Source of the DNA: Terriglobales bacterium
Lineage (GTDB): Bacteria; Acidobacteriota; Terriglobia; Terriglobales; Acidobacteriaceae
DNA: 64,000 nucleotides
Assembly: GCA_035651655.1 (NCBI GenBank)
Contig: DASRFG010000011.1
Coordinates: 1-64,000, forward strand
Direction: 5' to 3'
The notes under the pieces were generated by a model that was not told the DNA's origin, did no database searches, and worked only from the letters and a program-made list of their open reading frames with translations. Positions 46,569 to 64,000 of this stretch are shown piece after piece. Numbering within the stretch: position 1 is the first letter of the stretch; the number at the start of each line of letters is the position of its first letter. The translations under genes and the position numbers were made by a program.

Positions 46569-46793
46569 AGTTGTCTCTGTTTATTGTGCTGTAGCCAGGG
46601 AATCAGGTTTGATTCTGGCAATATCGCGGCGATAAAGGGGAGCAGGATCTATGCAGGGAGGCAATTGGTCCCACTCCCCTTCGCTTTGCCAGATTGACTC
46701 GCAAGGAGTCGCTATAGAAGATGTATGGAAGGTCGGAGTCGATGCGCTTTGCTACGTAAAGTTTTGTAACCCAAAGACAATTTCCAACCACCC

Positions 46794-48071: not shown

Positions 48072-48301
48072 CGCGGGTTGTAGCCTTTATTTCAGTCTGA
48101 ATTTCGAGTATGGATTGTACAAACGAGGAAGCTTTTCATCAATCTTCGGCGCTACGCGAACAAGACAGACCGCCGAACGACTGGTGTCTCGACACTGGCG
48201 CCCCATCCATTTCGCGTTCTCCGCGAAACGGGTGGGCGTCGCGTTGGATTTACCTGCGCAATTCATTGCCGGTATGCAAAGGTTTGCATATCCGGAACAT
48301 A
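48072..48301. other. Intergenic spacer upstream of a repeat-bearing promoter
   Basis: No convincing gene; open frames here are short and lack start signals. It precedes the tandem repeat and promoter at 48302-48370. Confidence 0.35.
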
Positions 48302-48344
48302 AACAATAAACAATAACTTGTGGAACAATAAACAATAACTTGTG
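48302..48344 (+). repeat. 22-bp tandem direct repeat, AT-rich
   Basis: Two exact copies of a unit beginning AACAATAAACAATAACTTGT occur at 48302-48322 and 48324-48344, period 22 bp, in an otherwise GC-rich setting. The second copy runs into the possible -35 of the promoter at 48340-48370, so it may be a tandem regulator-binding site. Confidence 0.8.
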
Positions 48345-48370
48345 TTTTAACCAGGTAACTCGCATATAAT
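48340..48370 (+). promoter_or_regulatory. Putative promoter for the galactose-oxidase-like gene
   Basis: A perfect -10 hexamer TATAAT lies at 48365-48370. A weak -35 (TTGTGT, spacing 19) is formed by the end of the second 22-bp repeat. Transcription from here would give a leader of about 155 nt before the ATG at 48534. Confidence 0.45.
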
Positions 48371-48533
48371 CCTGCTCGTAAGTTGCTGAATTTGGCCATC
48401 TGTAGATGCAAGCACGGCAACGGGATCTATGGCGCGCTTCGTTCCCCATCTCCCGCGACTAATCAGAGCAGCGATCCGAGTGTAATCCGAATCAGTGAAA
48501 AGCGTTGCTGTACGTCATTGTCCGGAGTCAGTC

Positions 48534-50012
48534 ATGCTACTAGAAAGTCTGGCCGCTCCCACTCGTCCGAGTGAAAGAACGTCCGTTCACCACCCGCTCT
48601 CAATTGGAGTGGATCTTCTACTAAGGCGCGCATGGCTGGGTATGGTCTTTTGTGTCATGCTCGTTACCGCGATTCCGCGCGCCTGGGGGCAGGGTCCATC
48701 AACCGTCGGGCAATGGACTCCGGTATTGTCGTGGCCTTATATCGCAACTCATATTTCTCTGCTTCCCAACGGAAAGGTGCTGTGGTGGCCATCATGGGCG
48801 GCAGGAGACAATCCCACGCTGTGGGACCCAGTCTCGGGCACGCAGACTGCTGTCTCTCACGTCGGCTACAACATTTTTTGTACCGGCCATTCTTTTCTCG
48901 GCGACGGCCGGTTACTCGTTACTGGTGGGCACGTTGCGAGCGGGTTCGGACTTCCTTATGCATCACTCTACGATCCCAGCAATGATAGCTGGAGTTCGCT
49001 GCCGGCCATGAGTGATGCCCGCTGGTATCCCACTAACATCACTCTTGCGAATGGCGATGAGCTAGTTGTTTCCGGCGAAGTCAACAGCACCATCGGTCAC
49101 AACCCGCTGTCGCAAGTCTGGCAAGTATCGAGCAATTCGTGGCGCAACCTCACCACGGCGCAACTGCTCCTGCCTCTTTATCCCGAAATGTTTGTCGCGC
49201 CCGATGGACGCGTGTTCTATGCCGGGCCCACTCGCCAGACGAGGTATCTCGATACAAACGGAACAGGCGCGTGGAGCACCGGCCCGGTGAGCAACTACGG
49301 GACCCGTGATTACGGCCCTGCCGTGATGTATGACAGTGGCAAAATCCTGCTAGCCGGGGGAGGCGACCCGCCCACCGCAACCGCCGAAGTAATCAATCTC
49401 TACGATTCCTTTCCCGCTTGGCGCTATACCGCGCCCATGACGCATGCGCGCCGGCAGAGCAATGCCACGCTGCTTCCGGATGGCACGGTGCTGGTGACCG
49501 GGGGCAGCGGCGGCCCGGGGTTCGATAATTCGTCCGCTCCCGTCTATCCCACCGAATTGTGGAATCCAACAACCGAGAGTTGGCAGACTCTGGCCAGTCT
49601 GAGTGTCTATCGCGGATACCACTCCATTGCCTTACTCCTGCCGGACGGACGTGTTCTCTCCGCGGGTGGTAATGTTGCCAGTGCGGAGATCTTTTCACCG
49701 CCTTATCTTTTCAAAGGAACAAGACCGAATATCTCCTCTGCGCCGGCCAGAATACGCAGAGGTCAGACCTTTTTTGTTGGGACTGCAAACCCAGGCAGCA
49801 TCGCAAAGGTAAGCTTGGTCCGGATCGGCTCCGTCACCCATAGCTTCAACGCGAATCAACGCATTAGTTTTCTCAAATTCAGTCAGGCTTCGGGGGGACT
49901 GTACGTCACCGTAACCCAAAATGCCAATCTCGCGCCGGTCGGTCACTACATGCTGTTCCTCTTAGACGGTAACGGAGTGCCATCAGTCGCCAAGATCCTG
50001 CACTTAAGGTGA
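48534..50012 (+). CDS. Secreted galactose-oxidase-like copper radical oxidase
   Basis: A 492-residue kelch-propeller protein with a C-terminal DUF1929-like domain. Signal region: WLGMVFCVMLVTAIPRAWGQ. The copper-radical site is conserved by position: Cys116 (NIFCTGHSFLGDGR) and Tyr165 (ARWYPT) for the thioether cofactor, Tyr362-His363 (RGYHSIALLLPDG) and His436 (SVTHSFNANQR) as ligands. Such enzymes oxidise primary alcohols or sugars to aldehydes with O2, making H2O2; GlxA-type bacterial members work in cell-surface glycans. The ATG at 48534 has GGAG 7 nt upstream; the frame is open to a GTG at 48495. Ends 10 nt before the HAF-repeat gene. Confidence 0.85.
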   Translation: MLLESLAAPTRPSERTSVHHPLSIGVDLLLRRAWLGMVFCVMLVTAIPRAWGQGPSTVGQWTPVLSWPYIATHISLLPNGKVLWWPSWAAGDNPTLWDPVSGTQTAVSHVGYNIFCTGHSFLGDGRLLVTGGHVASGFGLPYASLYDPSNDSWSSLPAMSDARWYPTNITLANGDELVVSGEVNSTIGHNPLSQVWQVSSNSWRNLTTAQLLLPLYPEMFVAPDGRVFYAGPTRQTRYLDTNGTGAWSTGPVSNYGTRDYGPAVMYDSGKILLAGGGDPPTATAEVINLYDSFPAWRYTAPMTHARRQSNATLLPDGTVLVTGGSGGPGFDNSSAPVYPTELWNPTTESWQTLASLSVYRGYHSIALLLPDGRVLSAGGNVASAEIFSPPYLFKGTRPNISSAPARIRRGQTFFVGTANPGSIAKVSLVRIGSVTHSFNANQRISFLKFSQASGGLYVTVTQNANLAPVGHYMLFLLDGNGVPSVAKILHLR

Positions 50013-50022
50013 ATGGGGTGAT

Positions 50023-51120
50023 ATGAAACCTGACTTAGATCGCAAGTCCCGGCTGATCTTGATCACATTCCTCTTGCTCGCATGTTGCAGGATCTCCTTT
50101 GCAGCTGACACCTACACCGTTATTGAAATCAAAGGAGCAGCCAACAACAGCAGCCTCGGACGTCATGCCGACAACCTAGCCAACATAGTGGTCGGCAGCT
50201 CGGGTCTCACGCACGGAAGCGACACTCACGCTTTCGTGTGGACGGCAGAGCAAGGCATGCTCAATTTAGGCACGCTTCCCGGAGGAGAATACAGCGAGGG
50301 TTTCGCCGTCAACGATTCAGGGGTGGTTGTTGGCGATTCGAACGGCGGTAAATCGGTGCATGCCTTCGTTTGGACCCACAAAGGCGGCATACAAGATCTC
50401 GGTACCTTGGCCGGTGACAATGCCAGTCGGGCGTTCTCCATTAATAATTCTCGGGAGATCGTCGGCTACTCCAGTGGGTCGCGGGGCGTACGCGCTGTCA
50501 TCTGGTCGAAGCATGCACGGATACACAGTCTGGGGACACTACCCGGTGGCGATATGAGTCAGGCTTACGCCATCAATAATGCTGGTGACGTGGTCGGTGT
50601 TTCCTCCAGTTCGTCCGGAAAACACGCCTTTCTATGGAACCGGAGGTCGGGGATGGTGGACCTCGGCACTTTGCCCGGCGACGTCTCCAGCGAAGCGCTG
50701 CGCATCAATCAAGCGGGTCATGTAGTGGGTACTTCTATGGGGTTGGGTGCGATTCATGCCTTTCTGTGGAGCAAAGAGGCGGGCATGGAGGACATCGGTT
50801 CGTTGGCGGGGAGTAGTTTCAGCCAGGCCCTCGACGTAAACAGCTCGCAGGAGGTGGTGGGCGCCTCCCAAACTTCACTCGGTTCCCGCGCCTTCATTTG
50901 GACCAGGAAATCTGGAATGCGGGACCTCAACAGCCTGATTTCCCCAACTCTAGACGTCGTCTTGACCTCTGCACTCCGAATCAACGATCGTGGCCAGATA
51001 GTTGCCATCGGCGGCTTCCACCATGACCTCGCCCGCGACCGCCAGACTGACATGGATGACGAAATGCACGCCGGGCCGACGCATGTCTTTCTGCTGACGC
51101 CAAGTGGCGGACTTCGATAA
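50023..51120 (+). CDS. Extracellular HAF-repeat protein
   Basis: A 365-residue secreted protein (signal ILITFLLLACCRISFA) built of about seven HAF repeats of roughly 40 residues, each with the core [TS]HAF[VL]W and a following LGTLPGG/LGTLAGD element, for example HAFVWTAEQGMLNLGTLPGG. HAF repeats are predicted small beta propeller blades of unknown function, common in soil bacteria. Starts 10 nt after the galactose-oxidase-like gene, so the two are probably co-transcribed. The end converges on the RND gene with a 10-bp gap. Confidence 0.88.
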   Translation: MKPDLDRKSRLILITFLLLACCRISFAADTYTVIEIKGAANNSSLGRHADNLANIVVGSSGLTHGSDTHAFVWTAEQGMLNLGTLPGGEYSEGFAVNDSGVVVGDSNGGKSVHAFVWTHKGGIQDLGTLAGDNASRAFSINNSREIVGYSSGSRGVRAVIWSKHARIHSLGTLPGGDMSQAYAINNAGDVVGVSSSSSGKHAFLWNRRSGMVDLGTLPGDVSSEALRINQAGHVVGTSMGLGAIHAFLWSKEAGMEDIGSLAGSSFSQALDVNSSQEVVGASQTSLGSRAFIWTRKSGMRDLNSLISPTLDVVLTSALRINDRGQIVAIGGFHHDLARDRQTDMDDEMHAGPTHVFLLTPSGGLR

Positions 51121-51130
51121 TTACCCACTG

Positions 51131-54100
51131 TTAGTCCCCCGGACTCGTGTTCGGAACGGGACTTAGCTGCTGCACTCCCGACCGCCGGCTGCTCATCCGC
51201 AAACGCAGCCGATCCAGGTACAAGTAAATGACCGGGGTGGTGAACAGCGTCAACGCCTGGCTAACGATCAGACCGCCTACGATGGTGATGCCCAACGGCC
51301 TTCGCATCTCCGACCCCGTGCCCATCCCCAACGCCAACGGCAGCCCGCCAAGCATGGCTGCCATGGTCGTCATCATGATGGGGCGAAAGCGCATCAGGCA
51401 GGCTTCATAGATCGCTTCCACCGGCGATTTGCCCTCGTGCCGTTCCGCCTCAAGCGCGAAATCAATCATCATGATCGCGTTCTTTTTCACGATTCCAATC
51501 AGCAAAATAATGCCAATCAGCCCGATCACATTCAGCTCATTGCGCGTCAGCAACAATGCCAGGATTGCGCCCACTCCTGCAGAGGGAAGCGTCGAAAGAA
51601 TCGTGATGGGATGGATGTAGCTTTCGTACAGCACCCCGAGCACGATGTAAACCGTCACTAAGGCCGCCAGAATCAGCAACGGTTCGGAGGCAAGTGAAGA
51701 CTGAAATGCCGCCGCCGTTCCCTGAAAACTGGGGTGAATAGTTCCTGGAAATCCGATGGCACGCTGCGCGTTTTCAATCGCGCGTGTCGCCTGGCTAAGA
51801 GAAACGCCCAGCCCAAGATTAAAAGAGATCGTTACCGCGGGATACTGTCCCTGGTGGGCCACCGCTAGCGCTGTATTCGAATTCTCAAAATGGGCGAAGG
51901 CCGAAAGTGGAACCGCAACGCCGCTCGAAGAGGGCACATAGATTTCTCGCAACGCCTCCGGATCCTGCGCGAAGCGCTGGTCCACTTCCATGACTACGTG
52001 ATACTGGTTCAACTGCCGGTACATAGTGGAGACTTGTCGCTGTCCGAAGGCATCGTAGAGGGTGCTGTCAATCACCGCCGAACTAACTCCCAACCTCGAC
52101 GCGGTATCACGATCCACCACGACTCTGGCCTGAAGCCCCTTGTCCTGCTGGTCGCTGTTCACATCGCGCAGTTCAGGCAGCTTGCGCATCTTGTCCAGCA
52201 GGCGCGGCGCCCATACAAGAAGGTCGCTCAAGTGCTCCCCCTGCAGGGTGTACTGGAACTGTGCGCTACTCTGCCGTCCCCCTATGGTCAGGTCTTGGGC
52301 GGCCTGCAGAAATAGTGTCGCGCCTGGCACTACGGTTAGCTTCCTTCGCAAACGGCTAATCACCTGGTCAGCGCTTACCTTACGGACTGAAAGCGGCTTT
52401 AGGGTGACGAACATGCGTCCACTGTTTGCCGCGGTGTTTCCTCCCGCAAAGCCAACCGCGGTTTCCACCGCTGGGTCCTTCACCACGATGGAAGCGAACT
52501 GAATCATCTTCTGTTTCATGGCGGCAAATGAGATGTCCTGTGAAGCGATGATGGAACCGCCGATCCGGCCGGCATCCTGCTGCGGGAAAAATCCCTTCGG
52601 GACAATGATGTACAGGTACACACTTAAACAAGCGGTTGCAACCGTAATAAACAACGTTAGCGGTTGATGCCGCAACACCCAGCGCAAGCTTCCCCGATAA
52701 ATTCCAAGAATTCCCGCAAAGATTCGCTCGCTGAAATCGTAGATCCTGCCGTGCTGTTCCTCGCTCATCGGACGCAAGAACTTGGCGCACATGGTCGGAG
52801 TCGTCGTTAATGAGACCAGCAGAGAAACCCCAATCGCCAGGCTCAGGGTTACCGCGAACTCACGGAAGAGCCTGCCCACCAGGCCACCCATTAAAAGAAT
52901 GGGGATGAACACCGCCACCAGCGACGTGCTCATCGAGAGCACGGTAAAACCGATCTCCTTCGCCCCGCGAAATGCCGCTTGCACCGGCGGAATTCCAACC
53001 TCGATGTATCGAGTAATGTTCTCCAGCACCACGATGGCGTCATCCACCACGAAGCCGGTAGAGATCGCCAATGCCATCAGCGACAGGTTGTCCAGGCTGT
53101 AGCCCAGCAGGTACATCCCCCCAAACGTTCCGACCAATGAAAGTGGTACAGCAACGCTGGGAATCACCGTGGCCCGCCAACTGCGGAGAAACACAAAGAC
53201 CACCAAAATCACCAGAACTACAGAAATGATTATGGTGCGCTCGATGTCCGAGACCGATGCGCGAATCGTGATGGTTCGGTCCAACACCACGTCAAGGTGA
53301 ATCGCGGCCGGAATAGACAACCTGAGCAGCGGCAGCATGCTCCGCACTCGGTCCACCGTACTGATGATGTTTGCCCCCGGTTGGCGAAAAACAATGATGA
53401 GCACCGCTGGTTTTCCATTTGCCAGCCCCACATTGCGAATGTCTTCCACGGAATCTTGAACATCGGCAACATCGCTCAGGCGCACCGCTGTGCCGTTTCG
53501 ATTCACAACGATTAACGATCGGTACTGCTCGGCCAAGAACAGCTGATCGTTCGCTCCGATGCTCCAGGCCTGGTTTCGGTCAGACAGTTGTCCTTTCGGC
53601 CGGTTTGCGTTCGCCGCCGTCAGAGCCGCGGCAATCTGGTCCAGCGAAACGTTGAGCTTGTTCACCAGGGTCGGATTTATCTCTGCTCGTACCGCCGGGC
53701 GAGCGCCGCCACCCACAAATACCTGCCCCACGCCCTCAACCTGGGCCAGTTTTTGCGCCAGAATAGAATCGGCCGCGTCGTACATCCGCGGCTGCGTCAC
53801 GGCGTCAGACGTCATTGCCAAAATCATGATTGGCGCATCGGCGGGATTTGCTTTTCGATACGAGGGATTGTTCGGCAGGTTAGCGGGTAGCTGGCTCCGC
53901 GCGGCATTGATCGCCGCTTGCACATCGCGCGCCGCAGCGTCTATGTTGCGGTTCAAGTCGAATTGCAACACGATGCTTGTCGAGCCTAGTTGGCTCGTCG
54001 AAGTCATCTGATTAACACCCGCAATTCGGCCGAACTGCCGTTCCAGCGGCGTGGCCACCGCTGAGGCCATGGTCTCCGGACTCGCCCCCGGCAATCCCGC

Positions 54101-54244
54101 AGACACCTGGATTACCGGGAACTCCACCTGCGGCAGCGGGGCAACCGGAAGAAACTTGAAAGCCAGCGCCCCCGCCAGCAGTACTGCCGCGGCCAGCAGC
54201 GATGTCCCGACCGGCCGTTTGATAAATGGGGCGGAGATGTTCAT
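51131..54244 (-). CDS. mdtC: RND efflux permease, MdtC-like
   Basis: A 1037-residue inner-membrane RND subunit. Key parts: APFIKRPVGTSLLAAAVLLAG (helix 1), PLERQFGRIAGVNQMTSTSQLGST, helix 4 with [13 protein letters not shown] and its proton-relay Asp pair, and a C-terminal [26 protein letters not shown]. It is the last gene of regulator-kinase-adaptor-permease-permease, starting 3 nt after the other permease. In E. coli, MdtB and MdtC form a heterotrimeric pump with MdtA; the same pairing is likely. No TolC gene accompanies this operon. Confidence 0.88.
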   Translation of the reverse strand: MNISAPFIKRPVGTSLLAAAVLLAGALAFKFLPVAPLPQVEFPVIQVSAGLPGASPETMASAVATPLERQFGRIAGVNQMTSTSQLGSTSIVLQFDLNRNIDAAARDVQAAINAARSQLPANLPNNPSYRKANPADAPIMILAMTSDAVTQPRMYDAADSILAQKLAQVEGVGQVFVGGGARPAVRAEINPTLVNKLNVSLDQIAAALTAANANRPKGQLSDRNQAWSIGANDQLFLAEQYRSLIVVNRNGTAVRLSDVADVQDSVEDIRNVGLANGKPAVLIIVFRQPGANIISTVDRVRSMLPLLRLSIPAAIHLDVVLDRTITIRASVSDIERTIIISVVLVILVVFVFLRSWRATVIPSVAVPLSLVGTFGGMYLLGYSLDNLSLMALAISTGFVVDDAIVVLENITRYIEVGIPPVQAAFRGAKEIGFTVLSMSTSLVAVFIPILLMGGLVGRLFREFAVTLSLAIGVSLLVSLTTTPTMCAKFLRPMSEEQHGRIYDFSERIFAGILGIYRGSLRWVLRHQPLTLFITVATACLSVYLYIIVPKGFFPQQDAGRIGGSIIASQDISFAAMKQKMIQFASIVVKDPAVETAVGFAGGNTAANSGRMFVTLKPLSVRKVSADQVISRLRRKLTVVPGATLFLQAAQDLTIGGRQSSAQFQYTLQGEHLSDLLVWAPRLLDKMRKLPELRDVNSDQQDKGLQARVVVDRDTASRLGVSSAVIDSTLYDAFGQRQVSTMYRQLNQYHVVMEVDQRFAQDPEALREIYVPSSSGVAVPLSAFAHFENSNTALAVAHQGQYPAVTISFNLGLGVSLSQATRAIENAQRAIGFPGTIHPSFQGTAAAFQSSLASEPLLILAALVTVYIVLGVLYESYIHPITILSTLPSAGVGAILALLLTRNELNVIGLIGIILLIGIVKKNAIMMIDFALEAERHEGKSPVEAIYEACLMRFRPIMMTTMAAMLGGLPLALGMGTGSEMRRPLGITIVGGLIVSQALTLFTTPVIYLYLDRLRLRMSSRRSGVQQLSPVPNTSPGD

Positions 54245-54247
54245 CGC

Positions 54248-57200
54248 CTAGTCGCCTCGGACCAATTCCTCTGCCGGCTCTTCGATGGGATTGCCAATCC
54301 GGAATCGCGAAAAGCGCCTCGCTATGCGGTCAAATGCCAGATAAACCACTGGGGTGGTGTACAACGTGAGCAACTGGCTCAACAAAAGTCCTCCTACTAT
54401 GGTGATTCCGAGGGGCCGGCGCAACTCCGATCCAGTTCCACTCCCCAATGCCAGCGGCAGCCCGCCCAGCAGCGCCGCCATGGTCGTCATCATGATGGGC
54501 CGGAAGCGCAACAGGCTGGCCTGGAAGATTGCCTCTTCCGGGGCCTTGTGCTCCACGCGCTCCGCCTCTAGCGCAAAGTCAATCATCATGATGGCGTTTT
54601 TCTTTACGATACCGATCAGCAAAATAATGCCGATCAGCGCCACCACTCCCAGGTCATTTCCTGTTATCAATAGCGCGAGGATTGCGCCCACGCCGGCGGA
54701 AGGAAGCGTAGAGAGAATGGTGATGGGATGAATGTAGCTCTCATACAGCACACCCAAAACGATGTAGACAGTGATAATCGCCGCCAGAATAAGGAAAGGC
54801 TCCGTCGAAAGTGAATTCCTAAACGCCGCCGCCGTTCCCTGGAAGCTCGAATGAATGCTTTCTGGCAGCCCAATCTCACGCTCCGCCTGATCGATCACCT
54901 TCGTGGCCTCGCCCAGCGAAACTCCGGGGGCAAGATTAAACGACAGCGTGACCACCGGAAATTGTCCTTGGTGGTTGATCGAAAGCGGCGCGTTGGTTGA
55001 CTCGAAATGCGAGAAAGCCGAGAGCGGCACCTGCACGCCCGTGTTCGAGCGAACATAAATCTGTTTGAGCGAGTCCGGGCTTTGCTGGAAATTCGAGGCC
55101 GCCTCGAGCACCACGTGATACTGATTCAATTGCGTAAAGATGGTCGAGATCTGTCGCTGGCCGAAGGCATCGTAAAGTGTGTCGTCAATTTGTTGCGGCA
55201 GAATTCCCAACCGCGACGCGGTGTCGCGATCGATCACCAGTTCCACCCTCAGCCCTCCGTTTTGCTGGTCGCTGGCCACGTCGTGCAGCTGAGGCTTGCT
55301 ACGCAACTGTTGTAAGAGCTTGGGCGCCCACACTCCCAATTCCTGCGCGTCAGCATCTTCGATTGAGTATTGATATTGCGTGCGGCTTACCCGGTCTTCG
55401 ATCGTCAGGTCCTGCACCGGTTGCATGTAAAGCGTGATCCCCTCCTCCTTGGCCAACTGAGGCTGTATTCGGCGGATAATCTCCGAGGCTGAAGGCTTGC
55501 GCTGGTTTCGCGGTTTTAGGTTGATCTGGATGCGTCCGCTGTTGGGCGTGGTGTTAACCCCATCCACCCCTATAAAAGAAGATAGGCTGACCACATCGGG
55601 GTCCTTCAGGATCACGCTTGCGAGCTTCTGTTGCCTTTCCGCCATGGCTCGAAACGACACGGTCTGTGGCGCTTCCGAGATGCCGAGGATCACGCCTGTG
55701 TCCTGCACCGGGAAAAAGCCTTTCGGCACCACAATGTAAAGGAGCAAGGTGAACACCAGAGTCGCAAAGGTGACCACCAAAGTCGCGGTCTGATGACCTA
55801 GCACCCACTTAAGCGTGCGTCCATAAAATTCGACCACGCGGTTGTAAAAATTCTCGGAAACTCGATAAAAGAGCGATTGATGGGTTCCCTTCGGCTTGAG
55901 CAGCTTGGCAGACATCATCGGGGTCAAGCTGAGCGAGATCGCCGCTGACACCAAAATCGTGACCGCCAGCGTCACCGCAAATTCACGGAACAACCGCCCA
56001 ACAATGTCGCCCATAAACAGCAGCGGGATGAGCACCGCGATCAGCGACACCGTCAACGAAATAATCGTGAACCCGATCTGCCCCGATCCCTTTAACGCCG
56101 CCTCCAGCGGGGAATCGCCCTGCTCCAGAAAGCGGTCGATGTTCTCAATCATCACGATGGCGTCATCCACCACAAAGCCGGTGGATATGGTCAAGGCCAT
56201 CAATGTGAGATTGTTCAGGCTGTAACCCAACAGGTACATCACTCCAAAGGTGCCTACAAGCGACAGCGGTACTGCCACGCTCGGAATTACAGTCGCCGAA
56301 AGATTCCTCAAAAACAGGAAAATCACCATCACCACCAGCGCGATGGTGAGAATTAAAGAGAACTGAACGTCCTGCACTGAGGCCCGAATGGTTTGCGTGC
56401 GGTCAGTAAGAATCTGCACTTTGACGGATGCTGGAAGGGAAGACTGCAACTGAGGCAACAGCTTCTTGATCCGGTCCACTACCGTGATGATGTTCGCGCC
56501 CGGCTGGCGCTGGATGTTCATGATCACCGCCGGTGTTTCGTTCATCCACGCAGCCAGATTCGCATTCTCGGCGCCATCAATCACGTTGGCTACGTCAGCG
56601 AGCCTCACCGGCGCGCCATTCCGGTAGGCGATGATCACCGATTGATATTGATTACTCGAGGTCAGCTGATCGTTGGCGCCGATAGTGAAAGACTGGCGAG
56701 GGCCGTCCAGCACGCCTTTCGCCTGATCAACATTCGCCTGCGCCAGAGAGGTGCGCACGTCCTCAAGGCTGAGGCCATTCGAAGCCAGCGCTGTCGGATT
56801 TGCCTGGATCCTTACCGCCGGTTTCTGTCCGCCGCTGATGGTGACTAGTCCCACCCCTAGAAGCTGCGAAATTTTCTGCGCCAGGGCAGTGTCGGCGAGG
56901 TCCTCAACTTTGGTGAGTGGCAATGTGTCAGAGGTGAGCGCCAGCGTAAGAATCGGTGCATCCGCCGGATTCACCTTGCTGTAAATGGGTGGATTGGGCA
57001 GGTCCCGCGGCAAATACGTTCCCGACGAGTTGATCGCTGCCTGGACCTGTTGCTCGGCCACATCAATGTTTTGATCGAGGCTGAATTGCAGTGTGATCAA
57101 CGAACTTCCGAATGAGCTTGTCGAGGTCATCTGGCTCAGGCCTGGCACTTGCCCGAACTGCCGCTCCAAGGGCGCGGTCACAGACGACGCCATTACATCG

Positions 57201-57367
57201 GGATCGGCTCCCGGATAAAACGTCATCACCTGAATAGTTGGGTAATCAACTTCTGGTAATGCTGATACTGGAAGCTGCCGGTAAGCTACAAACCCCACCA
57301 GCAACAAGCCAATCGTGAGCAGCGAGGTCGCAACCGGTCGGAGAATAAACAGCCGAGACGGACTCAT
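54248..57367 (-). CDS. mdtB: RND efflux permease, MdtB-like
   Basis: A 1039-residue RND permease, about half identical by eye in matched blocks to its downstream neighbour. [22 protein letters not shown] opens helix 1; [24 protein letters not shown] and [23 protein letters not shown] are typical, the last carrying the proton-relay Asp pair; [27 protein letters not shown] ends the protein family block. Overlaps the adaptor gene by 4 nt (ATGA). Pair with the 51131-54244 subunit as an MdtBC-type heteromeric pump, known in Enterobacteria for bile-salt, novobiocin and metal-linked resistance. Substrates here are unknown. Confidence 0.88.
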
Positions 57368-58545
57368 GGCGCGGAGATGCGAGTAGGCGGGGCGGAGGAC
57401 GCGTTAAGGTGACCGGTATTGCCAGTTCGGGGTTCCACCTTGCTTCCAGCTTGCAGTTTGTCTTGGCCATCCGTGACCACCATTTCCCCCGGCCTCAATC
57501 CTTGCGCTACTGCTGCCAGGCCGCCTTCTGTAAGCGCCACCGAGACCGGCCTCACCTCAACCGTCTTGTCTGGTTTCACCACGTAGGTAAACATCCCGTC
57601 CGGGCCGCGTTGAACGCCCGCCGAGGGAATGACAATGCTGTTCTTCCGGACTTCTAATAGCAAGTGGACATTCACAAACTGATTGGGCCAGAGTGCTCGC
57701 TCCTCGTTTGTAAAAATCGCTTTTAGCTTGCCGGTGCCAGTCGTTTGATCTATTTGATTGTCAATCGTGAGCAGAGTGCCGGTGGCAAGTTTTGTGCGGT
57801 CATCTCGGCTGTAGGCTTCCACACGAAGAGGAGTATTGCGCATATGCTGGGCAACACTTGGCAGTTGATCTTCAGGTAGGGTGAAGACAGCAGATATCGG
57901 CTGCAACTGTGTAAGGATCAGCATCGGAGTCGGGTCCGATGCATGGACCATGTTCCCTACGTCTACCATTCGCAGCCCCACTCGGCCGCTTATCGGCGCC
58001 ACGATGCGCGTATAAACCAGGTTCAGTTTGGCATTGTCTACAGCCGCCTGGTCTGCGTGCACTGCTCCTTCCAGCTGTCCCACCAGGGCAGTCTGTGTAT
58101 CAACCTGTTGGCGGGAAACGATTCCCGCGTTGACCAGCCCCTTGAACCTTTCCAGATCCAATTGTGCATTCTTCAGTTGTGCCTGATCTCGAAACAGCGT
58201 CGCCCGTGCTTGCTCCAGGGCCACCTGAAATGGACGCTGATCCAGCACCGCCAGCAATTCTCCCTGCCGTACTTCCTGGCCTTCCCGGAACGCAACCCTT
58301 ACCAGTTGTCCGTCCACACGGCTCTTGATCGCCACCGTATTGAACGCCGTCACTGAACCGAGCCCAGTCAGGTACACAGGCACATCACGCTGTTCCACCA
58401 GCGCCACGCCGACAGAAACTGCTTGTTGCTGCTGCGCGCCTTTCCCGCGCTGCTGCGCGGATGAGTTCTGCACCGCGCTGCCGCAACCTAGCAGGCTTCC
58501 GCTCGCGAGAAGCACCAAGCCGAACAACAGGTCTTTCGTTTGCAT
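57364..58545 (-). CDS. mdtA: RND periplasmic adaptor, MdtA-like lipoprotein
   Basis: A 393-residue adaptor. Signal with lipobox [13 protein letters not shown]. Typical MdtA series: [51 protein letters not shown], the hairpin (about residues 105-165), [25 protein letters not shown], and [24 protein letters not shown]. The N-terminus after the lipobox is Gln-rich ([11 protein letters not shown]). Sits 66 nt after the kinase gene, and its stop overlaps the next start, so all five genes are one transcript. Confidence 0.92.
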
Positions 58546-58611
58546 TGTTTGCTCTCTAACCCACCAACTACTCCCCCAGCTGTCGATTGTGATGTGATGA
58601 ATTACTGCAAC

Positions 58612-60027
58612 CTATTGATGCACAGTTTCATGACTGGGCACAGTCGTAGCGGGCAACCGGATCTCCACCACGAAACCCCCATTCGGCGCATTGGCCGCGC
58701 TGATCGTACCGCCATGCAGGCGAACTGCTCGTTCAGCGATCGCCAGTCCCAACCCCGAGCCGCCGGTTTGCCGTTCACGCGCAGCATCTACTCGGTAAAA
58801 AGGACGAAACAGGTTTTTGAGTTCTTCATCCGGGACCCCCGGGCCATGGTCGCGGATGGTAATCACGGCAAAGTTCCCGCTATTCGTTCCCTCGCAGCCC
58901 AATCGGATCTCAACCTCGCTCCCCTCTGCCGTATAGCGGACCGCATTCCGGATTACATTTTCAAACGCGCTGCGTAATAGTCCGGGGCTACCTAGAGCTT
59001 CGCAATCCTCGGCAGCCGGTTCAATTTCCACCAATCTCACTCGCGATTTGCGGCTGTGCGCCTCAAAATCGGCGTCCCCAATCACGTCTTTTAGCAGATC
59101 AGGGATGTTCACCCTCCTCTGCTCGGGCGTCTGCTCGCCGCTTTCCAGGCGGGCTAATGTCAGCAGCTTTCCTATCAAATCATTTAACCGTTGCGCTTCC
59201 AGTTCGATCCTGTCGAGGGCCTTGCCCACATCTTCGGTAGCGCGTTGCCGGGCCAGTCCCAGGGCCACATTCAAGCGCGCCAGCGGTGAGCGCAGCTCAT
59301 GCGAAATGTCGCTCATCAATTGTTTTTGAGAGTTGACCAAGGCTTCCAATCGCCGCGCCATGCGATTGAAATCGTGCACCAGTTCCGAAATCTCGTCCTT
59401 GCGTTCGGTCTCCGCCGCTCTTGCTGAAAAATCACCGCTCGCCAACTGTTGGGTCGCCGCCCGCAGTCGCACAATCGGCCCGGTAAGATAGCGCGCCAGC
59501 CAGAAGCAAATCAGACCGGAGATGAACGTTCCCAAACTAAGGTGCCAGAAAAGTTCCCGTGTTGATCGTCGGAAAGCCATCGGGCCGTGCCCGTGGAGCA
59601 TTCTGGCCACTAGGATGTAACCCTTCCCGCTGCTGGCAGTCATTACCTGTGCCGTCAGGGTAGCGTCAAACCGGTTCTCGAACTGAGGTTGGTTGGTCTG
59701 CCCGGCCAACCCGGCCATCTGCCTGACCCGTTTTGGGGTTGATGCCGCCTGCCCATAAAGCTCCCGGCCCTGGGAATCAAACCAGAAAAACTGCATGTCC
59801 GCCGACTTCTCCAGCTGCTGCAGATATTCATCAGCAGCCTTGATTCCGCCCTGCTCGAGGAATGAGGCCGCGGTCTCGTTGTAATGCTTGAGCGCGTCAG
59901 AAGAAATGTAGCGCCAGCGGGAGACCACCCTCTCCGCCGGGTGCTCGGCTAACAGCAATGCTAGTCCCAGGATCAGTGCCTGAATTAACCAGAATGAAAG
60001 AAAAATTTTGAGGAATATGCTTCGCAT
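58612..60027 (-). CDS. cpxA: CpxA-like sensor histidine kinase
   Basis: A 471-residue membrane kinase. Short cytoplasmic start, helix 1 (IFLKIFLSFWLIQALILGLALLL), a periplasmic domain of about 135 residues, helix 2 (LSLGTFISGLICFWLARYL), HAMP (PIVRLRAATQQLASGDFSAR) and HisKA with phospho-acceptor His243 in LMSDISHELRSPLARLNVAL, very close to CpxA. The catalytic domain retains ENVIRNAVRYT, IRDHGPGVPDEELKNLFRPFYR and GGSGLGLAIAERAV. In the Cpx system such kinases respond to misfolded envelope proteins and are damped by CpxP, a homologue of which is encoded divergently. Encoded 3 nt after the regulator. Confidence 0.9.
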   Translation of the reverse strand: MRSIFLKIFLSFWLIQALILGLALLLAEHPAERVVSRWRYISSDALKHYNETAASFLEQGGIKAADEYLQQLEKSADMQFFWFDSQGRELYGQAASTPKRVRQMAGLAGQTNQPQFENRFDATLTAQVMTASSGKGYILVARMLHGHGPMAFRRSTRELFWHLSLGTFISGLICFWLARYLTGPIVRLRAATQQLASGDFSARAAETERKDEISELVHDFNRMARRLEALVNSQKQLMSDISHELRSPLARLNVALGLARQRATEDVGKALDRIELEAQRLNDLIGKLLTLARLESGEQTPEQRRVNIPDLLKDVIGDADFEAHSRKSRVRLVEIEPAAEDCEALGSPGLLRSAFENVIRNAVRYTAEGSEVEIRLGCEGTNSGNFAVITIRDHGPGVPDEELKNLFRPFYRVDAARERQTGGSGLGLAIAERAVRLHGGTISAANAPNGGFVVEIRLPATTVPSHETVHQ

Positions 60028-60030
60028 CCG

Positions 60031-60747
60031 TCAGGCACTCTTCCCGGTGGCTGCCGATGAAGCGTAGATGTAGCCCACCCCGCGCACCGTCTTGATGCGC
60101 TCTTCGCCATGCCCATCCCCGCCCAGCTTTTTGCGCAGCTTACTCACGTGCATGTCAATACTGCGATCGTAGGGCGAGAACATCCGGCCGAGCACCGCCT
60201 TCGCCAACTGCTCGCGCGTCACTACGCGGCCAGCCTCGTGCAACAGCACCTCGAGCAAATTGAATTCCACTGCCGTTACTTCAACCGTAGTTCCGTTACG
60301 GCGCACCGTGCGTGTGCCGGTATTCAACTCGACGTCGCCGACGCTGATCACCACCGGCCCCGGCTTATGTTCCGCTCCCTCTTGCTTGGTACGCCGTAAG
60401 ATGGCATGGATCCGTGCCACTAGTTCTCGGGGATTAAATGGCTTAGGCAAATAGTCGTCCGCGCCCAACTCCAGCCCGACGATTCGGTCCACGTCTTCTC
60501 CCCGGGCCGTCAGTAAAAGCACGGGGATGGCGGAATGTGCAGCTCGCAGCTTGCGCAACACATCCAGACCGCTTAGGCCTGGCAGCATCACATCCAGCAC
60601 CACGATCGCATGTTCGGCTGAGCGTGCCCGGTCAAATCCGCGATTGCCGTTGTGCACCAGCTCGACTTGAAACCCTTCCGGCTCGAGGTACTCCCTCACC
60701 AGTTCACAGAGTTCCACGTCGTCATCCACTACCAATACCCGGTCCAT
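60031..60747 (-). CDS. cpxR: CpxR-like response regulator
   Basis: A 238-residue OmpR-family regulator. Receiver (1-118): DDD acidic pocket at 8-10, Asp52 as phospho-acceptor (VVLDVMLPGLSG), LTARGEDVDRIVGLELGADDYLPKPFNPRELVARI, nearly the CpxR wording. Winged helix (about 135-230): VEFNLLEVLLHEAGRVVTREQL, the segment LGRMFSPYDRSIDMHVSKLRKKLG, which corresponds to the recognition region of CpxR, and IKTVRGVGYIY. First gene of the cpxRA-mdtABC operon, divergent from the Spy/CpxP-like gene with GTAAA-N5-GTAAA repeats in between, the same layout as enterobacterial cpxP-cpxRA. BaeR is the alternative name, since E. coli BaeR governs mdtABC and spy. Confidence 0.88.
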   Translation of the reverse strand: MDRVLVVDDDVELCELVREYLEPEGFQVELVHNGNRGFDRARSAEHAIVVLDVMLPGLSGLDVLRKLRAAHSAIPVLLLTARGEDVDRIVGLELGADDYLPKPFNPRELVARIHAILRRTKQEGAEHKPGPVVISVGDVELNTGTRTVRRNGTTVEVTAVEFNLLEVLLHEAGRVVTREQLAKAVLGRMFSPYDRSIDMHVSKLRKKLGGDGHGEERIKTVRGVGYIYASSAATGKSA

Positions 60748-60804
60748 GGCTCTCTTGGCCTATTAATCCTTAATAAGTTCTACACCACCGGCTGCGCCGA
60801 GCGT

Positions 60805-60819
60805 GTAAAGAAGTGTAAG
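60805..60819 (-). promoter_or_regulatory. CpxR-like box upstream of cpxR
   Basis: GTAAA-GAAGT-GTAAG, read on the minus strand CTTAC-N5-TTTAC, lies 58 bp before the cpxR start and points toward cpxR. It departs from GTAAA-N5-GTAAA at one base. Suggests autoregulation. Confidence 0.55.
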
Positions 60820-60824
60820 TAGGA

Positions 60825-60839
60825 TTTACAAAACTTTAC
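60825..60839 (+). promoter_or_regulatory. Perfect CpxR-like box upstream of the Spy/CpxP-like gene
   Basis: TTTAC-AAAAC-TTTAC is the reverse complement of a perfect GTAAA-N5-GTAAA, the CpxR consensus. It lies 71 bp before the ATG at 60911 and points toward it. The same 15-mer recurs exactly at 62177-62191. Confidence 0.7.
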
Positions 60840-60910
60840 GATATTTGACTTACTCTTTACGCGCGTGCGGCGTAATACGTGTTTAAGTTAGTAATCGGAG
60901 GTGAGGGAAA

Positions 60911-61381
60911 ATGAATCGCAAATATGCTGTTACAGCAGTTGTGATCTTGCTGGTCGTCGGCACTGCCGCCGTCGGTCAGGGATGGGCCCACCAGCATCGC
61001 CGCTGGGGAATGGACGGTCTTATTGACCATCATATGGCCCAGATGGCTTGGCGCCTCGACCTAAATGACAGCCAGAGACAACAAGTGAAGGCGCTGGTTG
61101 CGGCCGAAAAGCCCAATATCAAAAACCTGGTCCAGCAGCTCGCGGCCACACATCAGCAGATGCTGACGGCTACTCAAAAAGGGCAGTTCGATGACGCCAA
61201 AGTTCGTGCCATCGCCAATCAAGAAGCGCAGACCATTGCGGAGTTGATTGTCACCAAACAACAGTTGCAATCGAAGGTGTATAGCTTGCTCACGCCGGTG
61301 CAGCAGGCCAAGTTCGACCAGATGCAGCAGCGCCACTTAGACCATATGCAGAAACGGATGGGAACTACTTCAAAACCGTAG
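60911..61381 (+). CDS. Spy/CpxP-family periplasmic chaperone-like protein
   Basis: A 156-residue periplasmic protein (signal AVTAVVILLVVGTAAVGQGWA). Family marks are two LTxxQ-like motifs: LNDSQRQQV (about residues 56-64; Asn for Thr) and LTPVQQAKF near the end, with a long amphipathic helical hairpin between, as in the cradle-shaped Spy and CpxP. It also carries His-rich spots (HQHRRW, DHHMAQMAW) that could bind metal. Expected to prevent aggregation of envelope proteins and possibly inhibit the kinase. ATG preceded by GGAGGTGAGGG. Confidence 0.85.
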   Translation: MNRKYAVTAVVILLVVGTAAVGQGWAHQHRRWGMDGLIDHHMAQMAWRLDLNDSQRQQVKALVAAEKPNIKNLVQQLAATHQQMLTATQKGQFDDAKVRAIANQEAQTIAELIVTKQQLQSKVYSLLTPVQQAKFDQMQQRHLDHMQKRMGTTSKP

Positions 61382-61385
61382 TGCC

Positions 61386-61423
61386 GTGTGCCGCACACAA
61401 CCGACTTATCGTGTGCGGCGCAC
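61386..61423 (+). terminator. Strong hairpin after the Spy-like gene, probable terminator
   Basis: GTGTGCCGCACAC pairs with GTGTGCGGCGCAC (one G:T pair) across a 12-nt loop, five nt after the stop codon. No U-run follows, so it may be a factor-assisted terminator or a 3'-end protecting hairpin. It also lies just past the convergent micro-operon end at 61441. Confidence 0.6.
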
Positions 61424-61440
61424 TGCCACTCTGTCTCTGA

Positions 61441-61617
61441 TCATCGAACAGAAGAAGCCTTGCTGATTTGCGGCGACCCTGCTTCCGGATCCAGAAGCCT
61501 GGCCAATAACACGAATAAAGAAGTCATTATTGCAGTCACAACTAACGACCCAATCCAGAGAACGCCGGCGTAGATGTTGGACACTATTCCCTGGGCTCCC
61601 GGTCCGTCAGCAATCAT
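61441..61617 (-). CDS. 58-residue single-span membrane protein
   Basis: An ORF starting at the ATG at 61617, which overlaps the last codons of the preceding 70-aa gene by 11 nt. The protein begins MIADGPGAQGIVSNIYAGVL and has one clear membrane helix (IYAGVLWIGSLVVTAIMTSLFVLLARLL, split here as residues about 15-42) and a polar tail. GGGGG about 8 nt before the ATG could serve as ribosome site. I recognise no family. With its partner gene it forms a micro-operon whose upstream region holds CpxR-like boxes; small membrane proteins are frequent in Cpx-type envelope responses. Confidence 0.6.
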   Translation of the reverse strand: MIADGPGAQGIVSNIYAGVLWIGSLVVTAIMTSLFVLLARLLDPEAGSPQISKASSVR

Positions 61618-61819
61618 GAGTTGGCCCCCAGGTTGAGATTGGCAAATCCTCTCTGCAGCGGCTTATCACCGACTTAATCTCGCGCAACTTCTGCCGCTCG
61701 TCCAAGGCGCTGTTCAAAACATCTTCGATCTCGGTCATCCAATACTGCAGGCACCGATCAATCCCATTCGCCAGCTCTCCCACAACGATCTCCACAAACT
61801 CGGTTTCGGTTGTAAGCAT
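61607..61819 (-). CDS. 70-residue helical acidic protein
   Basis: A small soluble protein, LTTETEFVEIVVGELANGID, then CLQYWMTEIEDVLNSALDER and QKLREIKSVISRCREDL, predicted nearly all helix, with an amphipathic pattern. The ATG at 61819 has a purine-rich ribosome site (AGAGAGGCGGA). It matches no family I know. Followed, with 11-nt overlap, by the 58-residue membrane protein. The upstream region carries GTAAA-N5-GTAAC (61919-61933), so expression is probably tied to the neighbouring CpxRA-like system. Confidence 0.6.
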   Translation of the reverse strand: MLTTETEFVEIVVGELANGIDRCLQYWMTEIEDVLNSALDERQKLREIKSVISRCREDLPISTWGPTHDC

Positions 61820-61896
61820 TTTCGTCCGCCTCTCTCGTATCTATAGAAGCTCAATGAATGGATCGACTATTAAGACATTTTTTGCCGTGTTTGGTT

Positions 61897-61933
61897 GTAA
61901 AGATTTGGTCAACGAATTGTAAAAATGTGTAAC
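61897..61933 (-). promoter_or_regulatory. CpxR-like boxes upstream of the micro-operon
   Basis: GTAAA-AATGT-GTAAC (61919-61933) is a one-base variant of the CpxR consensus. A weaker copy, GTAAA-GATTT-GGTCA (61897-61911), lies 22 bp nearer the genes, two helical turns away. Both have the orientation, relative to the 61819 gene, that the boxes before cpxR and the Spy-like gene have to theirs. Confidence 0.55.
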
Positions 61934-61955
61934 CAATCCAATCTGGTTTTTCGTT

Positions 61956-61970
61956 CTTACAAAACTTTAC
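61956..61970 (+). promoter_or_regulatory. CpxR-like box
   Basis: CTTAC-AAAAC-TTTAC, one base from the consensus, points toward the + strand. No clear gene follows at once; it may help control the divergent micro-operon. Confidence 0.5.
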
Positions 61971-62155
61971 ATTTGCTGACGTGCTCCTCTCTACCCAAAC
62001 CGCTGTGTCCAGCGTGATCATTTGTTACGTGAGAAGATTTTTTCAAGGTTGGGTTCCTCTGCCGTTGTTTCTGCTCAACTCCTCGTTGGCTCTCGCGCGG
62101 TTGGCAACTGCAGCAGTTTGGCTTCCTACGCGCCCTGAATTTTTGCTTGCGGGGC

Positions 62156-62191
62156 GTTACAAATCTTTACCGGACGTTTACAAAACTTTAC
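62156..62191 (+). promoter_or_regulatory. Tandem CpxR-like boxes before the structured RNA
   Basis: GTTAC-AAATC-TTTAC (62156-62170) and the perfect TTTAC-AAAAC-TTTAC (62177-62191) are spaced 21 bp, two helical turns. A possible -10, TAATCA (62215-62220), lies 23 bp after the second box, so transcription would start near 62226, at the foot of the predicted RNA structure. Confidence 0.6.
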
Positions 62192-62222
62192 GCTGCCTTC
62201 GATATGCCCCGTGGTAATCATT

Positions 62223-62346
62223 AGAGCGAGCACTGCTGCGAAAGGGGGTGATCAGCTCTCCTTGATGAATCGGGCGAGTGCCGAGTAAGCTCCTGGACAA
62301 CTTACTGCTAACACCCGCCCGATCCCCTTTCCGTCAGTGCAGCTCT
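62223..62346 (+). ncRNA. Candidate structured RNA, branched, about 124 nt
   Basis: Nested complementary segments: AGAG 62223-62226 with CTCT 62343-62346; GCACTG 62230-62235 with CAGTGC 62335-62340; GAAAGGGG 62240-62247 with CCCCTTTC 62324-62331; then a side hairpin ATCA/TGAT (62251-62266); ATCGGGCG 62269-62276 with CGCCCGAT 62316-62323; GTG with CAC (62278-62280, 62312-62314); AGTAAG 62284-62289 with CTTACT 62301-62306 around an 11-nt loop. This gives a three-way-junction shape. It may be a Cpx-controlled small RNA or a leader of the DUF5996 gene 100 nt downstream. It fits no riboswitch I know. Confidence 0.5.
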
Positions 62347-62447
62347 CTTTAACTTCCTTCCAACCATCAACCCGGTCTTAAAAACTCCAGCCCCTTACAC
62401 TCCGCCACTTTCCGGCGTAGGATATTTCCTTTGAACGGAACCCCAAC

Positions 62448-63380
62448 GTGAACAACTCTCGTGCAGCCAATAGCGAACTCGCCTGGCCCGAATTGCCGCT
62501 CGATCAATGGAAAGACACCTACGCCACGCTCCACATGTGGACGCAAATCGTGGGAAAGGTTCGCCTCGCCTTGAGCCCTCACTTGAACCACTGGTGGGAA
62601 GTTCCGCTGTATGTCTCCGCCAGTGGGCTTACCACCTCACCCATTCCGTACCGCGACATCCTGTTCGAAATTGAGTTCGACTTCATTGATCATCAGCTCT
62701 CAATCCATCTCAGCGACGGACGCGCCGCGACCCTCGCTTTGGAACCGCGCTCGGTCGCCCGGTTTTATCGCGAGTTCATGGCCATGCTGCGCGATCTGGA
62801 CATCACGGTAAAAATCTGGAAGATGCCCTGCGAAGTTCCCGACCCCATCCCTTTCGACAAGGACGAACAGCACGCCTCCTACGATGCTGACTATGCCCAC
62901 CGCTTCTGGCGAATACTGCAGTCTGCCGATACCGTCTTCAAAGAATTTCGTGCCGGCTTTATTGGCAAGGCCAGCCCGGTACATTTCTTCTGGGGCAGTT
63001 TCGATCTCGCAGTCACCCGTTTCTCCGGACGCCCGGCGCCCGAACGCAAAGGCGCGGACATCATCACCCGGGAGGCGTACTCACATGAAGTCAGCAGCGC
63101 GGGCTTCTGGCCCGGTGGCGGGGATGTGAAAGGCGCTGCCTTTTATTCCTATGCGGCTCCAGAACCAGCAGGCTTTTCTGCTGCTCCCGTCAGACCTAGG
63201 CCCGGGTTCTACAGCACCGCACTCTCCGAGTACCTGCTCATGTACGATGATGTTCGCCGGGCCGAGTCACCAAGGCTGGCCCTCATGGATTTTCTGCAAA
63301 GTACCTATGAGGCCGCCGCTACCCTCGGCAAGTGGGATCGCGCTTCATTGGAACGGTCTCCATCCGCCAGCGCCGCCTGA
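62448..63380 (+). CDS. DUF5996 family protein
   Basis: A 310-residue cytoplasmic protein of the DUF5996 family, function unknown. Recognisable blocks: LPLDQWKDTYATLHMWTQIVGKVRL near the N-terminus, HLNHWWEVPLYVSASGLTTSPIPY, FEIEFDFIDHQLSI, KASPVHFFWGSFDLAVTRFSGR, and YSHEVSSAGFWPGGG, followed by YSYAAPEP. The start is a GTG at 62448; no other good start is nearer to the conserved block. The alpha/beta hydrolase gene follows after 15 nt, so the two are probably co-transcribed. Confidence 0.85.
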   Translation: MNNSRAANSELAWPELPLDQWKDTYATLHMWTQIVGKVRLALSPHLNHWWEVPLYVSASGLTTSPIPYRDILFEIEFDFIDHQLSIHLSDGRAATLALEPRSVARFYREFMAMLRDLDITVKIWKMPCEVPDPIPFDKDEQHASYDADYAHRFWRILQSADTVFKEFRAGFIGKASPVHFFWGSFDLAVTRFSGRPAPERKGADIITREAYSHEVSSAGFWPGGGDVKGAAFYSYAAPEPAGFSAAPVRPRPGFYSTALSEYLLMYDDVRRAESPRLALMDFLQSTYEAAATLGKWDRASLERSPSASAA

Positions 63381-63395
63381 CAAAATAAAGGACCT

Positions 63396-64000
63396 ATGAA
63401 CAACCCGTCCCAGCCCCCCGTCCTCGACCCTGCCGTTCAAAAACTTCTCGACGAGTTCGCTTCCACACCTGGTCCAAAGATTCACGAGCTTCCAGTAGAA
63501 GACGCGCGGCACGTCTTTTTGGATATGCAATCAATCTCCATTCCTAAACTGCCAGCCGACATCGAAGATCACACGCTTCCCATTGGTCCGCGCGGGTCGG
63601 TTCTCATTCGCATAGTTAAGCCGCAAGGAATTGCCGGCCCGCTCCCGGCGGTTATGTATTTCCACGGTGGAGGCTGGGTCGTCGGAGACCGCGAGACCCA
63701 CGACCGCCTTCTGCGAGAATTGGCAAACGGCGCCAACGCCGCGATTGTCTTTGTAGAGTATTCGCGTTCACCGGAATCGTGCTATCCCATCGCCAACGAA
63801 GAAGCCTATGCCGCAACCCAATGGATCGCAGAGCACGGCGATGAACTCGGCCTCGATTCCAATCGGCTTGCGCTCGCGGGCGACAGCGCCGGCGGAAATA
63901 TGGCCACGGTCGTATCCATGCTCGCTAAGCAGCGCGGCGGTCCCAACATTGACCTCCAGATTCTGTTCTGCCCCACCCTGGATGCTTCCACCGATCCCGA
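63396..64000 (+). CDS. Alpha/beta hydrolase of the HSL (lipase/esterase) family, partial
   Basis: The gene starts at ATG 63396 and runs off the window; 201 codons are visible. The N-terminal part has a cap-like region; then come the oxyanion-hole motif HGGGWVVGDRETHDRLL and, about 80 residues later, the nucleophile elbow GDSAGGNMATVVS with the catalytic Ser. EYSRSPES.YPIANEEAYAA is also typical for the hormone-sensitive-lipase group (family IV), which cleaves short-chain esters. The Asp and His of the triad lie beyond the window end. Confidence 0.88.
   Translation, partial: MNNPSQPPVLDPAVQKLLDEFASTPGPKIHELPVEDARHVFLDMQSISIPKLPADIEDHTLPIGPRGSVLIRIVKPQGIAGPLPAVMYFHGGGWVVGDRETHDRLLRELANGANAAIVFVEYSRSPESCYPIANEEAYAATQWIAEHGDELGLDSNRLALAGDSAGGNMATVVSMLAKQRGGPNIDLQILFCPTLDASTDP

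Follow-up and report, generated by a model that had tools for sequence, protein, structure and literature searches.

What is the long branched hairpin that stands between a Cpx-type operator and a gene for a DUF5996 protein in this Terriglobales genome, and could it work as RNA? It occupies positions 62223–62346 of the window, i.e. of the whole 64,000-nucleotide stretch of DNA that was analysed. Tentatively, we favour its interpretation as the 5′ leader of a Cpx-type-driven transcript that runs towards DUF5996 and acts by stabilising or by gating ribosomes. The computed basis of this leader reading is the structure, the operator with its wide use in the family, and a complementarity to 16S rRNA (scored against an assumed tail); what we infer is that the region is transcribed, from which start and strand, that the transcript extends into DUF5996, and that stability or translation is affected.

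The hairpin and its parts, the latter taken from the predicted fold, are as follows:

62223–62346, + strand: branched hairpin, an imperfect palindrome (folding and shuffling on both strands, tiling of the window)
62223–62227/62342–62346, + strand: outer stem
62230–62235/62335–62340, + strand: second stem
62237–62238/62332–62333, + strand: two pairs
62240–62247/62324–62331, + strand: lower stem
62251–62255/62262–62266, + strand: side hairpin
62269–62276/62316–62323, + strand: first stem of the long arm, 8 bp and GC-rich

This computed fold matches the one that the first-pass annotation had drawn by hand, with a nested outer stem, a side hairpin and a long arm with an 8-bp GC-rich stem. Upon comparison with dinucleotide shuffles, as that annotation had recommended, the + strand reaches a minimum free energy of −55.5 kcal/mol (shuffles −37.7 ± 3.4; z −5.3) and the − strand −63.8 kcal/mol (z −6.9); on neither strand did any of the 200 shuffles do as well. 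At the level of thermodynamic prediction, the hairpin structure is thus confirmed as real. When the window was tiled (1030 tiles of 124 nt from both strands plus the element itself on either strand, at 16 shuffles per tile, so that z is rough), the − strand of the element had the best z and the lowest energy of all tiles, and the + strand ranked sixth by either measure. Elsewhere in the window, four stretches have z ≤ −4.7; hence, the hairpin is rare, though not unique. Its palindrome score at the DNA level, 22, merely equals the best of 500 shuffles (22; mean 1.3, sd 6.0), which makes RNA folding the stronger measure.

The − strand folds better than the + strand by 8.3 kcal/mol, forming 46 pairs versus 44. 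By folding alone, the element is therefore an imperfect palindrome with no preferred strand, and the better folding of the − strand counts against the leader reading. Conceivably, it is the − strand that functions as RNA, or the palindrome acts as DNA near the operators, for example as a protein site or a cruciform. Against this stand the lack of any promoter-like − strand site in 62347–62600, i.e. upstream of the element, the small difference in G-U pairs (4 versus 2) and the 16S match described below, which sits on the + strand. We consider both variants highly improbable.

For the + strand, the relevant features are those of the surrounding Cpx-type locus:

58612–60027, − strand: histidine kinase (HAMP, HisKA, HATPase_c; Pfam)
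60031–60747, − strand: OmpR/CpxR-type response regulator (Pfam PF00072, PF00486)
60826–60860, + strand: operator before the CpxP-like gene, with a good −10 region, GTGTTTAAGTTA
60911–61381, + strand: CpxP/Spy-like LTXXQ protein, gene divergent from the regulator (PF07813, 2.9e-13; 50.8 bits, cut-off 24.3)
61607–61819, − strand: small protein of 70 aa with its own Cpx-type operator, no Pfam match (homologues in relatives)
61897–61932, − strand: the same operator before the 70-aa ORF
62157–62191, + strand: Cpx-type operator before the hairpin, TTACAAATCTTTACCGGACGTTTACAAAACTTTAC, with two tandem GTAAA-N5-GTAA(A) boxes on the other strand
62157–62170 and 62177–62191, on the other strand: these tandem boxes (box search)
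62211–62221, + strand: degenerate core promoter GTGGTAATCAT, where many relatives have GTGTTCTTAT (matrix score)
62448–63380, + strand: DUF5996 gene with a GTG start, the next long frame downstream of the hairpin (Pfam)

The hairpin had been reported to begin about 30 bp after two tandem boxes, and 31 bases indeed separate it from the second one. Boxes of the form GTAAA-N5-GTAA without mismatch occur six times in 60805–62191 and once elsewhere in the window. The single box GTAAA-N5-GTAAA gives no strong genome-wide signal (nine exact sites versus four of a reversed control). The full operator unit as read off relatives is TTAC-N5-TTTAC-N(4–7)-TTNAC-N(4–7)-TTTAC. It has three copies in the whole genome, all within 1.4 kb at the Cpx locus, and none of the reversed control. 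Across the family, it was found in 87 of 398 genomes (own included) and the reversed pattern in 0, in a list that surely includes chance or repeat sites such as two overlapping ones in genome G053. In 12 of 29 loci of relatives, the full operator lies at most 180 nt upstream of a cpxP-like gene. The third half-site of the operator before the hairpin reads TTTAC, whereas most sites listed family-wide have TTGAC, a difference that counts against the leader reading. GTCAA, the complement of TTGAC, is among the half-sites in the set of motifs applied to CpxR in Pseudomonas aeruginosa (PMC12802237). Because of the spread of the operator, its placement before cpxP-like genes and the GTCAA half-sites, operator and cpxP-like gene look like a Cpx-type regulon in the family, to which binding of the regulator is predicted.

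Besides the three full operators, 60805–62191 contains two more single boxes (60805, 61957). A perfect GTAAAGTTTTGTAA box at 46756–46769 (+) is located where two convergent frames end, so that neither flank offers a gene that it could drive. In one genus (g28), a second operator type, TTACGAAGTTTTACC...TTGAC...TTTAC, recurs at L142, L146, L148, L150, L159, L166 and L167; it is found 271–369 nt before the longest downstream frame, which would leave room for an unannotated product.

Among 93 operator places, GTGTT follows the last half-site in 38, at a distance of 18 in 26 cases, 19 in nine, 20 in two and 16 in one. These 38 sites, from which a promoter matrix was derived, were chosen for holding GTGTT and many belong to a single genus; information therefore comes only from the spacing and from the bases that follow. 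The putative hairpin promoter GTGGTAATCAT has GTG at distance 19 and is degenerate in the remainder. In the GTG-aligned placement it scores −5.4, and in the best placement at spacing 19–22 it scores −2.4, a value matched by 6.4% of 5000 random positions; scores of the training sites range from 5.6 to 18.2, with 10.7 for the CpxP-like promoter and −0.5 for that of the 70-aa ORF. A sigma-70 scan of 61800–62600 revealed no + strand promoter. The degenerate core promoter and the missing sigma-70 match count against the leader reading. Of the probable Cpx-type control proposed in the first-pass annotation, the operator level is well supported by sequence comparison (regulator, kinase, LTXXQ gene and a family-wide array), and the promoter is a degenerate, predicted one.

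From the spacing in relatives, a transcript would start near 62227, and the foot of the hairpin lies within a few nt of this expected position. An RNA cut to the predicted start (62227–62360) keeps the fold at −48.6 kcal/mol with z −3.4 and loses the outer 5-bp stem; this less extreme value likewise counts against a leader. To see the hairpin among its peers, the 130 nt downstream of the 93 distinct operator places were taken, of which 91 could be scored. It is the strongest fold outlier of the 91 (z −4.74, next −2.82), hence a hairpin is not a general feature of the regulon.

Two further features within the hairpin concern ribosomes:

62240–62253, + strand: 16S-complementary stretch GAAAGGGGGTGATC, 14 contiguous pairs (one G-U) with the 3′ tail of 16S rRNA
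62265–62288, + strand: mini-ORF ATG...TAA of 7 codons (MNRASAE), read from the sequence

The tail is an assumed sequence rather than one read from this genome, and the match was noticed post hoc. With this tail, the duplex at 62240–62253 amounts to −24.3 kcal/mol and is the best in the window, followed by −20.0, in a scan of 42656 positions (every third base, both strands). Among the 91 operator-downstream stretches the next value is −16.5 kcal/mol, and the element read on its reverse strand gives no better than −14.1 kcal/mol. If a 13-nt tail is used instead, this site is ahead of the second-best one by 0.5 kcal/mol (−20.5 versus −20.0). A pattern search allowing up to three mismatches gave no general excess of 16S-complementary sites (4 found, 5.9 expected). 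A chance match was considered and rejected, given that none of 1000 shuffled versions of the element (best −22.7) and no other scanned position of the window equals the −24.3 kcal/mol obtained with the assumed tail. Since the match is on the + strand, which the operator faces, it favours a + strand RNA that meets ribosomes. Its first eight nucleotides form the 5′ side of the lower stem and its last three are part of the side hairpin, so that folding of the RNA would conceal the binding site. The mini-ORF begins 11 nt past the complementary stretch and may be due to chance. No ORF of at least 60 aa overlaps the hairpin, in keeping with the earlier statement that none runs through.

Taken as a leader, the hairpin would function as follows. 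The local Cpx-type regulator would activate rightward transcription from the operator at 62157–62191. With a start near 62227, the RNA would begin almost at the base of the long hairpin and continue through the DUF5996 gene (62448) into an esterase-like gene that follows it. The 5′-terminal stem together with the 14-nt 16S-binding stretch could then protect the 5′ end against decay of the RNase E type, require the stem to open before ribosomes load, or both. A bolder and quite unlikely version is a stress-induced RNA whose hairpin hides the 14 complementary nucleotides and, once opened, holds a 30S subunit at its 5′ end, which could protect the transcript, run an MNRASAE leader-peptide switch or tie up ribosomes during envelope stress. 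As precedent, some mRNAs are reported to be stabilised by stem-loops in the 5′ UTR, and by strong Shine-Dalgarno stretches including ones that lack a start codon (PMC7509114). Similar to such stabilisers (ompA, ermC), the stem is at or near the predicted 5′ end, and strong 16S complementarity is present without a long ORF. Unlike there, the start is a predicted one, the 16S stretch is mostly in stems and the gene is 101 nt past the hairpin.

The first functional rival to a leader is a free Cpx-induced small RNA of ~120–135 nt that would start near 62227, end in the pyrimidine-rich stretch past the hairpin and act by base pairing like CpxQ in enterobacteria. This would agree with the operator 31 bp upstream, with a hairpin that begins about where the inferred transcript would, and with the presence of Hfq in the genome (best match 96.9 bits, cut-off 27). 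The hairpin is followed by no detected U-tract terminator. Such patterns are not enriched in 44001–64000 (19 found versus 18.5 expected from shuffles), so that a missing one says little against a small RNA. An RNA that is mostly paired in the predicted fold would have little free seed, and no homologue was detected in the family genomes or loci searched. Overall, a free small RNA appears unlikely. Of the two roles suggested in the first-pass annotation, that of a leader agrees somewhat better with the lack of a detected U-tract terminator and with the position of the DUF5996 frame, whose start is 101 nt further down the same strand. The length of this gap, ~100 nt from the hairpin end to the start codon, counts against the leader.

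CpxQ is the 3′ UTR of cpxP. Chao and Vogel (2016), cited in PMC6298763, likewise describe it in their title as 3′ UTR-derived. The resemblance to CpxQ and other enterobacterial Cpx small RNAs consists in a structured RNA candidate at a Cpx-type locus in a genome with Hfq, with which CpxQ works (PMC6298763). In contrast to CpxQ, the hairpin is preceded by an operator of its own, and no terminator was detected for it; the comparison at the sequence level is that of the Rfam scan. A strong hairpin is also predicted right after the CpxP-like gene at 61380–61430 (+), for which 61380–61445 gives −29.2 kcal/mol and z −4.8 without a T-run; it is terminator-like or possibly a 3′ UTR RNA. The Cpx system (CpxA/CpxR/CpxP) itself shares with this locus the kinase, the OmpR-type regulator, the divergent LTXXQ gene and boxes, which are GTAAA-N(4–8)-GTAAA with GTCAA variants there and GTAAA-N5-GTAA(A) here. 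The GTCAA half-site at most of the operator sites listed in the family is a further likeness to the motif set (PMC12802237). What sets the present locus apart is the array of four half-sites, the 70-aa partner protein and the hairpin; binding by its regulator is a prediction.

The 70-aa protein has homologues at 19 places in 18 of 395 other family genomes. At 14 of the 19 places, two of them with an internal stop, it is encoded at most 300 bp downstream of a cpxP-like match on the same strand, which makes it a candidate second member of the cpxP operon that would be inverted here. In L225 (3500–3750, genome G004), the operator of the 70-aa homologue is oriented towards a box pair in mirror image and towards a stretch containing CCCACGGCGTAAGCCGTGGG, presumably a common acidobacterial repeat.

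The pairing of DUF5996 with a Cpx-type operator was not found in the other loci examined: 0 of 80 DUF5996 loci have a full operator and 3 have even one box, located 540 bp upstream of the gene in L027 and far upstream or downstream in the other two. Judged by these loci, DUF5996 behind such an operator looks peculiar to this genome, which counts against the leader reading. The sequences upstream of DUF5996 at 19 of the 80 loci, compared by eye and unaligned, have nothing in common, and a literature search returned no paper naming DUF5996. In genomes G003 and G074, a full operator after the cpxP-like gene leads to a ~440-aa gene instead, and in G004 a box there precedes a gene of that size. The locus thus differs in the present genome. 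By eye, the ~440-aa product reads as a membrane-fusion efflux protein; that of G004 has its best match in this genome on another contig (33% identical).

This difference suits the simplest rival, which is also the likeliest single alternative, albeit a somewhat unlikely one: a non-functional palindrome, left by an inverted duplication or a mobile element, that landed between operator and DUF5996 after rearrangement of the locus. The strong folding of both strands and the failure to find a homologue in relatives are in line with such a relic. Yet the genome holds no second copy (with E up to 10, the other five matches are 14 bp each), a target-site duplication was not seen by eye at the ends, and a random relic is not expected to carry the best 16S match of the window. 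A multi-copy repeat or mobile element of the REP or MITE kind was rejected, as no further copies were found in the genome.

Searches for homologues covered several data sets. In Rfam (4227 families), nothing in the window matched at the gathering score, and three sub-threshold matches in 61900–62500 (12.6–13.9 bits) are far below it; the label "undescribed" given by the first-pass annotation holds solely in this sense. The hairpin DNA gave nothing credible in 199 other family genomes. A 24-bp match from this search, inside a 446-aa frame in L083, was judged to be chance. With a covariance model made from one sequence, that of the − strand, the element itself was the sole match among 200 family genomes (this one included, stricter filters), and 62 loci gave nothing above chance (best E 0.9). 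Phages and plasmids contained no hairpin match, viral contigs none to one exact 22-mer of it, and a genus search no genome besides this one; in ~198 more family genomes, the searches covered the operator and the 70-aa protein. The closest of six compared relatives, G004, is 66% identical in the kinase and 55% in the CpxP-like protein. At such divergence, loss of recognisable non-coding sequence is expected, so absence of the hairpin is weak evidence. The stretches beside the 70-aa homologues in G004 and G041 have strong folds of their own (L225, L227, L228), which include the divergent box pair itself, a repeat-like stretch and a terminator-like hairpin. None of these three loci gave a match to the covariance model.

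Taken together, the hairpin is a good candidate for direct experiment rather than a demonstrated new RNA class. Among six papers found on Acidobacteria and CpxR, none was about such a regulon, judged by title. The analysis provides a concrete, testable Cpx-type operator for the family and singles out one element behind such an operator that may be an RNA. If the leader does capture 30S subunits under envelope stress, this would represent an unusual mode of stress control.
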